Origin: Thermodesulfobacteriota bacterium
Lineage (GTDB): Bacteria > Desulfobacterota_D > UBA1144
Reading direction: 5' to 3'
Length of the DNA stretch: 59,136 nt
Assembly: GCA_030835345.1 (NCBI GenBank)
Contig: JAURPH010000002.1
Span: 1-59,136 of the forward strand
Within the stretch, counting starts at the first letter, position 1. Each line of letters begins with the position of its first letter. Shown here one piece after another: positions 7,789 through 36,327 of this stretch. A model generated the notes under the pieces. That model saw only the letters and a program-made list of their open reading frames with translations, was not told the DNA's origin and made no database searches. Made by a program: the position numbers and the translations under genes.

Positions 7789-9009
7789 TTGATTCCGAAA
7801 TATATATTATCAAACTTAGTTGAAGCACGTATAAATTTATTTAGAAATAAAACAAGAACACTATTGACATCATTAGGCATTATAATTGGTATAACATCAG
7901 TAATTATCCTCATAGCAATTACAAATGGTGCAAAATCAGTAATTGAGACCCAACTTACTAGTCTCGGTGCTAAGACTATAATGTTGAAACCTTTTGTAAG
8001 AACAGGAAGCGGATTTAGCACTGCTAGGGGACAAGACTTTAATGAAAAAGAGCTAAATTTGATAAAAAGTTTAGACTCAGTTTCTTATCTTGCTCCAATT
8101 GTTAAAGATTCAAAAACTGTTAATTACAGGTCCGTATCACAAATTGTAGCACTTGTTGGTTCAAATTCAGATTTTGCTGATATCAACGATTGGAGGAATA
8201 CAAGTGGAAGCTTTATTACTCCAGAAGATGTTCAAGATGGAAGTAAAGTTTGTGTTCTTGGAGCAACAAATTCAAAAAGATTTTTTGGTGCGGAAAACCC
8301 CATTGGTAAAAGAATTAGGATAAATGGAATACCCCATGAAGTTATAGGTGTCTTAGAACCTAAAGGTTTAACACCAGGCGGTAGAGATCAGGATGATTTT
8401 ATTCTGTTACCTTATTCATCATTAAATAGATTACTTTTCAGACCTGATATGTCTTCAATAGTTACAGTTCTTATGGCTGCTAAGTCCTCTGATGAACTAG
8501 AATATGCAAAATTTTCAATCAAAAAGATTCTTAGAGAGACAAGAAATATAAATGGAAATAATGATAATTTCAGTATTTCGTCGTATGAGAATGTTACCAA
8601 GAAAATCCTTAATACCACAAAAATACTTAGAATACTTTTAACCTCGATTGCTTCCATATCACTTATTGTTGGAGGTATTGGTATTATGAATATTATGCTA
8701 GTTTCAGTTACAGAAAGAACCAAAGAAATTGGTATTAGAATTACAATTGGTGCGAAGAGCAGAGATATAGTATTTCAATTTCTTTGCGAATCAGCATTAT
8801 TATCTCTAACTGGCGGGATAGTTGGCGTCATTCTTGGATTTATTATTAGTCAAATAGCTTCTACCATTATTGGATGGCCAGCAGTAGTTTCTGCTACATC
8901 GGTACTAATTGCTTTTTTCTTCTCTGGTGGAATAGGTATTTTTTTCGGTATCTACCCTGCATTCAAGGCTTCAAAGCTGGATCCAATTAAGGCAATAAGG
9001 AATGAATAA
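7789..9009 (+). CDS. MacB-type ABC transporter permease
   Basis: 406 residues, TTG start one base after the ATPase stop. One N-terminal helix ([20 protein letters not shown]), a MacB-like periplasmic domain of roughly 220 residues (Gln/Asn-rich, containing [11 protein letters not shown] and [13 protein letters not shown]), then three C-terminal FtsX-type helices starting at [20 protein letters not shown], followed by the conserved cytoplasmic coupling motif [17 protein letters not shown]. This four-helix layout defines the type VII (MacB) fold. Together with the three preceding genes it should form a TolC-dependent pump that drives substrates from periplasm to outside. Confidence 0.92.
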
Positions 9010-31929: not shown

Positions 31930-33150
31930 ATGGTTCCAGCAATAATATGTGTTGGGGACGGTGTTCGTTCAGAAGACCTGGATAAATTCAACAAAGAAAA
32001 AATAGGAAGAATTCCACTATATGAAAGGATTTTAATCAATCTTATTAATGAGGGTTTCAATAAAGTCTATATTGTTGTAGAAAAGGATGTTTCTTTAAAG
32101 TTAAATAATATCCTTGGCCCAGTAAATATAGAATACATTGAACTTTCAGACCTAGTAAAAATCAATGAAGACATTTTAATTTTTCAAAATAATGTAGTTA
32201 TTAACAAAAAGCAGCTTGTAAAAATTATTCAAGAAATATCTAAAACTGAAAATTCATTTATTTGTAAAAATGGCGAAGAGGATTTCACAGGAATATCATT
32301 TATAAAAGAAAATGATTTATGTTTGGTTACATCGGCAAAGTCTATCAAGACATTTAAACAATTAACTATATCTGAACCACCATTATTATTAGAAGAACAT
32401 AACTTAGGTTCAAATGTAGGTAGAGATTTTTTATTTTCCCATATTAGTAAAAATGTAAGCGGATGGGTTTCCAAGAATATTAATAGCAGGATATCAATTC
32501 CTATAAGTAAAATACTCATGGAATTTAGGATACATCCCAACACAATTACTTTTTTTGTAGGGTGCTTAGGAATTTCATGCGGTTTTTTTTATGCAAGCAA
32601 CAATCCTTTGATTGGAGCATTGGTTCTTCAAATGGCTACGATATTAGATAGATGTGATGGTGAAGTAGCAAGGATAACATTAAAAGAATCAAAATTTGGG
32701 CAATGGTTTGATACGGCTTTAGATCAACTTTCATACTTTTCAATGTTTATAGGAATAGCAACATGTTTAAACAATCCCAGTTTTTTTCCTCTAACGAATA
32801 TAAATATACTTATAAAGCAATTTTCCATTATAAATATAATTCTTTACATAATATTTATAACTACAGTTCTTTTTTTCATGATTAGGAGAACAAGTAACGG
32901 AAGTTTGGCATATTATCCTGGTGAAGTAGATAAAAGAGTCCCAATTCAAGAAAGGTCTTTATTTTACAGATTAATTTCAAAGTACAGGTTCCTTTTAAAA
33001 AGAGAGTTCTTCTCTCCAGCTATGATTTTTGGAAGTTTTTTGGGGTATAAATTCCTAGCAATTACATCTTTAATTTTATTTGTATTTGGACTTTATCATC
33101 AAGTTTCTGATTACCTGGCATTAAAGGAAAAAACCGACATTACTTATTAA
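31930..33150 (+). CDS. CDP-alcohol phosphatidyltransferase with degenerate nucleotidyltransferase-like N-terminal domain
   Basis: 406 residues. The N-terminal ~185 residues look like a nucleotidyltransferase Rossmann domain (IGRIPLYERILINLINEGFN, then ILIFQNNVVINKKQLVKII) but lack a proper GxGxR...K signature. The C-terminal half is a membrane enzyme with the complete CDP-AP motif DRCDGEVARITLKESKFG and QWFDTALD (D-x2-DG-x2-AR-x8-G-x3-D-x3-D) and several helices. The layout resembles bifunctional inositol-phosphate cytidylyltransferase/di-inositol-phosphate-phosphate synthases, but with the active cytidylyltransferase in the separate gene before it. Product unknown: phosphoinositide-like lipid or a compatible solute. 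Confidence 0.78.
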   Translation: MVPAIICVGDGVRSEDLDKFNKEKIGRIPLYERILINLINEGFNKVYIVVEKDVSLKLNNILGPVNIEYIELSDLVKINEDILIFQNNVVINKKQLVKIIQEISKTENSFICKNGEEDFTGISFIKENDLCLVTSAKSIKTFKQLTISEPPLLLEEHNLGSNVGRDFLFSHISKNVSGWVSKNINSRISIPISKILMEFRIHPNTITFFVGCLGISCGFFYASNNPLIGALVLQMATILDRCDGEVARITLKESKFGQWFDTALDQLSYFSMFIGIATCLNNPSFFPLTNINILIKQFSIINIILYIIFITTVLFFMIRRTSNGSLAYYPGEVDKRVPIQERSLFYRLISKYRFLLKREFFSPAMIFGSFLGYKFLAITSLILFVFGLYHQVSDYLALKEKTDITY

Positions 33151-33229
33151 ACTTTTTTATACAGAAAAATAATAATATAAAGAGGCAAGTCCATGTTGAT
33201 GAAAGCATTAAGAATGATGACAAGTTCAT
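33140..33229 (-). CDS. 29-aa membrane peptide coupled to the NSS symporter, MetS-like
   Basis: The symporter stop and this start overlap as ATGA (ATG 33229-33227). The frame encodes MNLSSFLMLSSTWT, a hydrophobic CLFILLFFCI core, then KKFNK. That is one membrane helix with a basic cytoplasmic end. Bacterial NSS-family importers such as the methionine/alanine importer MetP are known to be encoded with a small single-helix subunit, MetS, with a similar Ser-rich start and length; here the resemblance is in size, topology and position, not in firm sequence identity. It overlaps the 3' end of the convergent phosphatidyltransferase gene by 11 bases. Far too short for standard gene calling. Confidence 0.5.
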   Translation of the reverse strand: MNLSSFLMLSSTWTCLFILLFFCIKKFNK

Positions 33230-34743
33230 TGATTACTCCTTCTAATAATTTTTATTAAACCTAAAAATACAATTATCAATGATATTCTCGATAAAATAGT
33301 CCACATATCATTTTGTAAAATTAATGAATCACTAGAGTTTAAATCTGATATAACCCATGAACCTAATAGTAAAACCAATAAAAATGGCAGTAAGTATTTG
33401 AAAATAAAATTAAAAAAACTGGGAATATTGATTAAGCTATCTCGATTAATTTCTTTTATAGGTTTACCTGGGGATATATAAATGTTGTATAAACAAATTT
33501 CCAAAATAGCCAATACAACTAACATTATAGTGCCAGCCCAAAAATCAAACTCATTTAAAAATTTTGGAAAAAAAATAATCAAATGGGAAAATATAAATAT
33601 TATTAAAATTACAAAGTTAACTGATCGTTTTCTTGACCAATTAAGTTCCTCTTTAAAAAAAGTTATCGCTGGCTGAATTATTCCAATTGATGAAGTAAGA
33701 CCTGCAATAAAAAGGAGAAAAAACCATGTAAATGATAAGAACGCTCCATAATCCAACCCATCGAAAATTGCTGGCATTGCAATAAAGCCTATACTAAATG
33801 CCCCCGAATTTGCGACAATAATTGCACCTGATATACCTAAAAAAGCAACGGCGGCCGGTATCACAATCGAACCCCCAAAAATAACTTCAATTATTTCATT
33901 TAATGTAGCTGATGTTAGTCCACTTAATGCAATATCCTTATCATGGCTTATAAATGAAGCATAAGTTACTATTGCCCCAAAGCCTAAACTTAGAGTGAAG
34001 AAAACTTGTCCAGCTGCAGCAATCCAAACCTTAGGAAGCAGAAGGTACGAAGTATCTGGTTTCCATAAAAAATTTAGACCTTCTATTGCACTGGAGTTTT
34101 CTGTTTCTATTGTTAGAACATAAATTATTAAAAAAACACTCATTACCAATAGCATTGGCATTGCTATTTTGACAAACTTCTCAATTCCTGATGATATACC
34201 TCTCCTGAGAATTAAATAATTGATTACAACAGTAATCAACAAACATGAATATGCAAATAAGGATGGAATCTGAATCCCATATCTATTCTTCGATTCAAAC
34301 CCAGTATAATCATTAAGAAACTCTTTATAAAATGTCATTTTACTATTTGAATCAATAGCTCCTGATTGTAATTCAGAACTTAATGAACTTAGCGAGTATC
34401 CAAGTGTCCAAGACTCAATGTAAATATAATAAATCGAAACAATCAACGGTACCCAAACACCAAGTAGACATGATATTTTAAGAAAACTCGGGGCTCTTAA
34501 CTTTTTTGCAATGCCATAAGTAGTTCCTTTACCTAATTGTCCACCCTTTCTTCCAATACCCCATTCAATCCACATTAACGGGATTCCAATTAAGAAAAAA
34601 CAAATCAGATATGGGATTATAAATGTTCCACCTCCGTTTCCAGCAGCTTGAACAGGAAATCTTAAAAAATTCCCTAAACCAATAGCATTTCCGGCCATAG
34701 CTAAAATTAGACCATATCTAGTTGCCCAGTTTTCTCGATTCAT
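33226..34743 (-). CDS. Sodium:neurotransmitter symporter (NSS/SLC6) family transporter
   Basis: 505 residues, about 12 predicted helices. The first helix carries the NSS signature GLILAMAGNAIGLGNFLRFP; the unwound GNAIGLGN region binds sodium and substrate. Further conserved blocks: GGGTFIIPYLICFFLIGIP and GQVFFTLSLGFGAIVTYASF (helix 6). It most likely imports a neutral amino acid with sodium, typical for marine bacteria. The C-terminus ends RRSNQ, and a 29-residue membrane peptide begins within the stop codon. Divergent from the dksA-like gene, with 77 bases between starts. Confidence 0.9.
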   Translation of the reverse strand: MNRENWATRYGLILAMAGNAIGLGNFLRFPVQAAGNGGGTFIIPYLICFFLIGIPLMWIEWGIGRKGGQLGKGTTYGIAKKLRAPSFLKISCLLGVWVPLIVSIYYIYIESWTLGYSLSSLSSELQSGAIDSNSKMTFYKEFLNDYTGFESKNRYGIQIPSLFAYSCLLITVVINYLILRRGISSGIEKFVKIAMPMLLVMSVFLIIYVLTIETENSSAIEGLNFLWKPDTSYLLLPKVWIAAAGQVFFTLSLGFGAIVTYASFISHDKDIALSGLTSATLNEIIEVIFGGSIVIPAAVAFLGISGAIIVANSGAFSIGFIAMPAIFDGLDYGAFLSFTWFFLLFIAGLTSSIGIIQPAITFFKEELNWSRKRSVNFVILIIFIFSHLIIFFPKFLNEFDFWAGTIMLVVLAILEICLYNIYISPGKPIKEINRDSLINIPSFFNFIFKYLLPFLLVLLLGSWVISDLNSSDSLILQNDMWTILSRISLIIVFLGLIKIIRRSNQ

Positions 34744-34773
34744 TATTAATAAATTAACCTTTAATTCTATATC

Positions 34774-34801
34774 TTGACAAATATTTTAATGAGCTTATCT
34801 T
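34774..34801 (+). promoter_or_regulatory. Promoter of the dksA-like gene
   Basis: A perfect -35 box TTGACA (34774-34779), a 16-base spacer and a -10-like TATCTT (34796-34801, four of six). Transcription would start near 34808, about 13 bases before ATG 34821. Confidence 0.5.
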
Positions 34802-34820
34802 AATAAACTTGAGTTTAGAT

Positions 34821-35306
34821 ATGCCTACAGCTAAATTAAAGAAAAAAACAGTCAAAAAACCTAGTATAAAAGCTTCAAATAAAAAGCTAAATACTAAATC
34901 AACAGAAACAAAATCTTCAAAGTTTGAAGCTGTTTCAATTAAAAAGCCTAGTGCTAAGTTTAAAAGAGATATGGAAAAGATTCTGGTTAACATGAGAAAA
35001 GATCTTTTAGAGGATATCAATAATGTTATGAAATCTGAATCAGACCACCTAAAATTTGATGTTGGTGATTTCTATGATAGTGCAAGCAGTGATAGAGAAA
35101 GAGAGTTATCATTATCTTTGAGTCAAAGAGATAGGCAGAAACTAACTATGATTGAAGATGCTCTAAATAGGCTTAAAGGCAAAACATATGGGCAATGTCA
35201 AATGTGTGGCGATTTCATACCAGAGGAAAGATTAAGAGTAATGCCGTTTACTGTGTATTGTGTTTTATGTCTTGAAGAAGAAGAAACAAGTGTCTCGCCT
35301 ACTTAA
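34821..35306 (+). CDS. dksA: DksA/TraR family zinc finger transcription regulator with basic N-terminal extension
   Basis: 161 residues from ATG 34821 (a TTG at 34809 would add four). The C-terminal four-Cys finger CQMCGDFIPEERL...CVLC (C-x2-C-x17-C-x2-C) and the preceding helices with LKGKTYGQCQMCGD match the DksA/TraR family, which binds RNA polymerase's secondary channel in the stringent response. The coiled-coil tip residues can lie in DFYDSASSDRERE. The first ~50 residues are Lys/Ser/Thr-rich and low in complexity, an unusual extension. The 3' end overlaps convergent mtnA by 8 bases. Confidence 0.85.
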   Translation: MPTAKLKKKTVKKPSIKASNKKLNTKSTETKSSKFEAVSIKKPSAKFKRDMEKILVNMRKDLLEDINNVMKSESDHLKFDVGDFYDSASSDRERELSLSLSQRDRQKLTMIEDALNRLKGKTYGQCQMCGDFIPEERLRVMPFTVYCVLCLEEEETSVSPT

Positions 35307-36327
35307 AAAACTTTTTAATTTTTCTCAAGTTTGGCTTAACGATTATTCCTTTTTCAGTAACAATTCCAGAAATTAAACTATTAGGTGTAACATCAAAAGC
35401 AGGATTCTTGACTTTAGTAGCTTTGGAGAGTCTTATATTATTTAATTTTAAAATTTCATCCTTACTTCTTTCTTCAATTACAATATCTCTACCGGATACA
35501 ATATTCATATCAAAAGTTGATATTGGAGCAGCAATATAAAAAGGAATTTTATGATAGTTTGCAGTAATTGCGAGCTGGTAAGTTCCAATTTTATTAGCAG
35601 TATCACCATTCATAGCTATCCTGTCAGCTCCAACAATAACAATATCAACACACTCAGAATTGACAATATGACTTGCCATTGAATCACATATTAGAGTGCA
35701 ATCAATGCCTTTCATCAAAGATTCCCAAACTGTTAACCTAGATCCTTGATTAAGTGGTCTAGTCTCTGTTGCATAAAGAGAAATATTTTTAAATTTTTTA
35801 TTAGCTTTATCAATAATACCAAGTGCAGTCCCTGGACCCGTTGTAGCCAAAGCACCTGTATTACAATGAGTTAATATTTTAAAATGATTTTTTATAAGTT
35901 TTAATCCATTAATAGAAATTCTTTCAGAAACTTTTCTTTCTTCATTATAGATTTTATTAGCTTCTTTATAAAATAACTCTAAACAATCTAAATAAGATAG
36001 ATTTTTATAATCTGAGATAATTATTTTAAATCTCTTAACTGACCATGATAAATTGACAGCAGTAGGTCTAGCTTTTTCAATTTGATTAAGATATTTTCTG
36101 ATTGAACTTTTATAATTTTTTTTATTTTTCAAATCCTTTAATGCAAAATAGCATCCAAATGCACCAGCAACACCAATTGCTGGTGCACCCCTAATAGCCA
36201 AAGATTTAATCAGTTTGATAACTTCCTTGTAATCAGATGTAGTGACATATTTATGTTGAAATGGCAATAATCGTTGATCAAGGATATTAACACTTCTATT
36301 TTTATTAACTGAAATTGATTTATACAT
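35299..36327 (-). CDS. mtnA: S-methyl-5-thioribose-1-phosphate isomerase
   Basis: Aldose-ketose isomerase of the methionine salvage pathway (MTR-1-P to MTRu-1-P), in the eIF2B-like fold. 342 residues. IKSLAIRGAPAIGVAGAFG, THCNTGALATTGPGTALG (catalytic Cys), ETRPLNQGSRLTVWE and VGADRIAMNGDTANKIGTYQ (catalytic Asp) are diagnostic. Overlaps prmA by 8 bases. No other mtn gene is in the window; alternatively it may serve a 5-deoxyribose disposal shunt as proposed for some MtnA homologues. Confidence 0.94.
   Translation of the reverse strand: MYKSISVNKNRSVNILDQRLLPFQHKYVTTSDYKEVIKLIKSLAIRGAPAIGVAGAFGCYFALKDLKNKKNYKSSIRKYLNQIEKARPTAVNLSWSVKRFKIIISDYKNLSYLDCLELFYKEANKIYNEERKVSERISINGLKLIKNHFKILTHCNTGALATTGPGTALGIIDKANKKFKNISLYATETRPLNQGSRLTVWESLMKGIDCTLICDSMASHIVNSECVDIVIVGADRIAMNGDTANKIGTYQLAITANYHKIPFYIAAPISTFDMNIVSGRDIVIEERSKDEILKLNNIRLSKATKVKNPAFDVTPNSLISGIVTEKGIIVKPNLRKIKKFFK

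Follow-up and report, generated by a model that had tools for sequence, protein, structure and literature searches.

A conserved 29-residue peptide encoded at the stop codon of a LeuT-type symporter gene, a proposed small subunit

LeuT is the prototype of the neurotransmitter:sodium symporter (NSS) fold, and the mechanistic picture of NSS/SLC6 transporters as a whole rests on it. The LeuT family also provides the structural model of neurotransmitter transporters. Work on LeuT has dealt with one polypeptide chain, which was purified and crystallised without a small partner and which works in vitro without a peptide. In the related MetPS system, on the other hand, the small subunit is reportedly needed for transport. 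Here we describe a small gene that starts at the stop codon of a LeuT-type symporter gene. It was found in a 59,136-nucleotide stretch of DNA (hereafter the window) from a Thermodesulfobacteriota bacterium.

The peptide gene and its symporter

The peptide of 29 aa (MNLSSFLMLSSTWTCLFILLFFCIKKFNK) is translated from the minus strand, and its ATG is shared with the TGA of the symporter gene in an ATGA overlap (Table 1). From the sequence, it is predicted to form one hydrophobic helix with a basic end. The layout described in the first-pass annotation, namely the ATGA start, the single hydrophobic helix, the basic end and the 11-base overlap with the convergent gene, was right, and the translation was checked; the strand had not been given there. 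The convergent gene encodes a CDP-alcohol phosphotransferase domain. On the other side, in the region 34743-36327 of the window, the symporter gene is divergent from a DksA/TraR-like gene, and mtnA, a methionine salvage gene, is located beyond that gene.

Table 1. Features at the peptide locus (window positions)
Feature	Position	Strand	Evidence or remark
Proposed small subunit of the LeuT-type symporter, 29-aa single-helix peptide	33140..33229, stop codon included (ATG 33229-33227, stop 33142-33140)	minus	translation, ATGA overlap, conservation, linkage
LeuT-type neurotransmitter:sodium symporter (NSS), 505 aa	33226..34743	minus	PF00209 E=4e-49; PDB 2a65 E=1.6e-156 (phmmer)
Shine-Dalgarno AAGGAG	33241-33236	minus	6 nt upstream of the peptide ATG, within the symporter's last codons
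Overlap of the peptide 3' end with the convergent gene	33140..33150		11 bases; convergent gene 31930-33150, plus

The first-pass annotation had placed the peptide in the context of MetP-type importers. This is to be corrected, since the match to PDB 2a65 identifies the transporter as LeuT-type and not MetP-type. The window symporter aligns with LeuT of Aquifex aeolicus along its whole length (residues 2-497), and the unwound segments of TM1 and TM6 are conserved in the alignment (GNAIGLGNFLRFP and FFTLSLGFGAI). Judging from what is known of LeuT, the symporter is likely to take up a small hydrophobic amino acid together with sodium. The NSS gene is single in this genome of 0.97 Mb, the search giving one match.

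Conservation of the frame and its linkage to symporter genes

A short hydrophobic frame at the end of a gene in AT-rich DNA could arise by chance. In random DNA with the GC content of the window (0.30), a coupled hydrophobic frame of 25-60 aa follows 0.7% of stops. Of the 58 ORFs of 120 aa or more in the window, two have a coupled hydrophobic frame. The second one, a hydrophobic frame of 58 aa (MFNGFNFLINNFIKLPIIRSIPLILLTIFIYPLSVVILILLKLFTIITVLFKKVFRNA), is located at the stop of a MacB/FtsX-type permease gene (7789-9009, plus strand). Because of this chance rate and this second case, a single coupled frame alone is weak evidence.

The reality of the peptide was settled by its conservation. 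The orthologous symporter was found in all 14 genomes of the family, the other 13 being 60-92% identical to that of the window, and the 29-aa frame occurs at the symporter stop in 14 of 14. Residues M1, L9, W13, L19, C23, K26, N28 and K29 are invariant among 12 aligned peptides of the family, although the invariance of N28 and K29 may stem partly from the overlap with the convergent gene. The mean pairwise differences among the family peptides were 0.48, 0.20 and 0.57 at the three codon positions. In 89 of 91 pairs pN was lower than pS, calculated for codons 2-25 so as to leave out the overlap. The 29-aa frame is a real gene under purifying selection. Against a chance frame speaks that relatives keep the reading frame and its length as well as W13, C23 and the basic end; related frames also occur in GC-rich genomes, and all 42 significant profile matches described below are tied to NSS genes or their remnants. 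The chance reading is already refuted by conservation, and we attach practically no weight to it.

The linkage was analyzed with a profile of 42 peptides (A2), which was searched alone, in six frames, against 58 whole genomes of the phylum. It gave 42 matches at E<=1e-3. In 40 of them, the peptide gene comes immediately after an NSS gene in the same orientation. In one remaining case (G021), the NSS gene is cut by the contig end, and its continuation opens the next contig together with the peptide. In the other (G016), a decayed NSS frame runs into the peptide frame. The linkage of the peptide is exclusive to LeuT-type NSS genes. Among the 58 genomes, only G027 has a LeuT-type NSS with a readable end but without the peptide; its NSS shares 65% identity with that of the window. 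Two genomes without the peptide (G017 and G018) carry a different NSS, which is 31% identical.

At the decayed locus of G016 (L172; G016:C130:27500-30500), the small-subunit frame is still recognisable, so that the peptide has outlasted its partner. A DksA-like frame also adjoins this decayed symporter.

The frame is not confined to the phylum. In public genome contigs from other phyla, 66 LeuT-type loci had a readable end and 53 of them carry the frame; the phyla that bear it include Myxococcota, Ignavibacteriota, Omnitrophota, Acidobacteriota and Gemmatimonadota. In 30 further LeuT-type loci of many families, all from genomes outside the phylum and none used in profile building, the frame scored at least 20 bits in 25 and 16.9 bits in one more. 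One family (f18) had the frame in all 17 readable loci. The start is at -1 (ATGA) in 34 of 78 loci and at +2 (TAATG) in 23. An SD-like core precedes the frame in 50 of 66 relatives, compared with 7 of 132 control windows. The original proposal would have failed if relatives had shown no conserved frame or hydrophobicity after the symporter stop; the frame is kept after LeuT-type symporters in many phyla.

The frame is missing at about 17 LeuT-type loci, mostly of Ignavibacteria, plus that of G027, and it is therefore not indispensable in every host. On the tree, the presence/absence label needs 7 changes, against 27 in shuffles, and the absences cluster in Ignavibacteria. No such frame was found after the genes of NSS proteins of about 450 aa carried on plasmids. 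The idea of the first-pass annotation that small subunits may be general in this transporter family is thus borne out in the LeuT-type branch, whereas the branch of about 450 aa does not follow it. The presence of relatives of the peptide after most of the LeuT-type genes sampled across bacteria suggests that the LeuT-type family normally has an overlooked small second subunit.

Natural fusions of NSS and peptide were looked for and none was found. Four candidates, all from GC-rich genomes, were rejected because they proved to be long stop-free frames overlapping the NSS gene in a different reading frame. On a plasmid of Natribaculum luteum, a haloarchaeal NSS gene is followed by a gene for a hypothetical protein of 105 aa, which starts with a single W-containing helix (MALEPITWTVMFAVTALLWGVTSVALYRSL...). 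This protein is possibly a longer small subunit.

Proposed role of the peptide

We consider it likely that this real, coupled gene encodes a stoichiometric subunit of the symporter with a MetS-like role; the topology, the binding and the role in transport are inferred. Translation of the peptide would be coupled to that of the LeuT-type symporter, at the end of the symporter mRNA, so that the two would be made in matched amounts. The peptide would then insert into the membrane as a single pass. The C-side is more basic than the N-side in 62 of 66 peptides and the N-side is neutral; an orientation with the N-terminus outside and the basic C-terminus in the cytoplasm is inferred to be likely for this reason. 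The inserted peptide is inferred to pack against the symporter as a small subunit in equal number, and might support its assembly, stability or transport as MetS serves MetP. In the absence of expression or binding data, it is inferred by analogy with MetPS that the peptide most probably attaches to the transporter and aids its assembly or activity. Since some lineages do not have it and LeuT is active in vitro on its own, the peptide is more likely to modulate or stabilise the transporter than to be strictly required.

The same two observations, that some LeuT-type transporters have no peptide and that LeuT is generally known to function alone in vitro, would also be compatible with a real membrane peptide that is not a structural subunit. 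Such a peptide might regulate the symporter, or act on the membrane generally and be merely co-transcribed. However, no significant profile match lies away from an NSS gene, and peptide and symporter stay paired in many bacterial families. A direct partner accounts for this better than a peptide acting on membranes at large. We therefore regard a role other than that of a subunit as unlikely, though it cannot be dismissed.

The resemblance to MetS raises a further possibility, namely that the peptide is a true but very divergent member of MetS serving a methionine or alanine importer. In hhalign the probability of relationship to MetS was 95% with the wide alignment and 42% with the window family alone, the sequences being short. 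One relative in the class (G022) appears as a bridging member, reaching 27.5 bits against the NF033493 cut-off of 25, and the methionine salvage gene mtnA is near by. However, G022 is the only member to pass, and the window peptide and nearly all of its relatives stay below the cut-offs. The tryptophan is at position 13 and is not part of a W17-G-G motif, and the window transporter aligns with LeuT over its whole length. Furthermore, several genomes that have the peptide also have a classical MetS, which adjoins another NSS paralog with about 28% identity to LeuT. Membership in MetS itself is thus very improbable, and a subunit dedicated to the LeuT-type symporter remains our preferred reading.

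Comparison with LeuT and MetS

In the trees, LeuT of Aquifex is placed inside the peptide-bearing group, adjoining other families of the window's class. The window's own family and f18 lie further out from LeuT. All of these groups bear the peptide, with the exception of G027. The members of f18 are the best matches to the lumazine synthase of A. aeolicus, by a small margin, on which basis f18 may represent Aquificaceae. A grouping of LeuT with f18 was rejected by the tree. No LeuT closer than 67% was found in 387 domain-wide genomes and 24 genomes from the order with the nearest lumazine synthase, and a search for LeuT in viral contigs gave no matches.

Since LeuT stands among peptide-bearing relatives, it, too, is likely to have a partner of this kind or to have had one. 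This is a prediction from the trees, and the leuT locus of A. aeolicus itself was not in our data. The stronger proposal, that LeuT is natively a two-subunit protein whose partner is encoded just after leuT and has been missing from structural and kinetic work, is tentative, and we find it slightly harder to accept than to doubt. As LeuT was purified and crystallised without a partner, a strict requirement for folding is unlikely. Literature searches brought up no report of a small subunit of LeuT, and the PDB has no relative of either peptide profile. If the proposal is true, the partner could bear on the disputed dimer formation, stoichiometry or slow turnover of LeuT, and the question of whether this model transporter behaves differently with its natural partner becomes directly testable.

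The description of the peptide as MetS-like was confirmed in size, in the order of the genes and in a distant similarity of profiles, but not for membership in the known models: the window peptide gave no match to the MetS models of Pfam and NCBIfam (NF033493 / PF16951), and the 42 relatives gave only one match to the curated MetS model, at E=0.062. In the phylum, NF033493 (30 positions) detected only three loci, one of them above the cut-off, and all three are this peptide after an NSS gene. Across 50 other genomes, it detected mostly classical MetS beside a second NSS. Loci L179-L193 show several genomes with two NSS genes, the LeuT-type peptide being located beside one and classical MetS beside the other. 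The profile similarity to MetS scored 38.4. None of 60 column-shuffled controls exceeded 24.1, and the reversed control gave 13.9. With the reservation that the sequences are short, the peptide family and MetS, whose genes are arranged alike, are probably related at a distance; by the profile results, the window peptide falls outside the curated MetS families.

If our reading is true, most LeuT-type transporters are heteromers with a partner of 29-60 residues that is unrecognised by the Pfam and NCBIfam libraries searched. The small-subunit rule of NSS transporters would then extend beyond MetPS, and an overlapping short hydrophobic frame would offer an easy criterion for finding other small subunits. 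Like MetS (NF033493, NF033494; Pfam PF16951, MaAIMP_sms), the peptides have 30-60 aa, one hydrophobic helix and a basic tail, and their genes directly follow an NSS gene with an overlapping or near-touching start; MetS genes annotated by PGAP occupy the same place after their NSS genes. Unlike MetS, in which W17-G18-G19 was present in 15 of 15 sequences, the peptide family has W (or M) at position 13 and C or S near 23, and the window family has the invariant W13 without GG. Its genes adjoin LeuT-type and not MetP-type NSS genes. With association and function still inferred, the peptide is best read as a distinct, uncatalogued small-subunit family for LeuT-type transporters.
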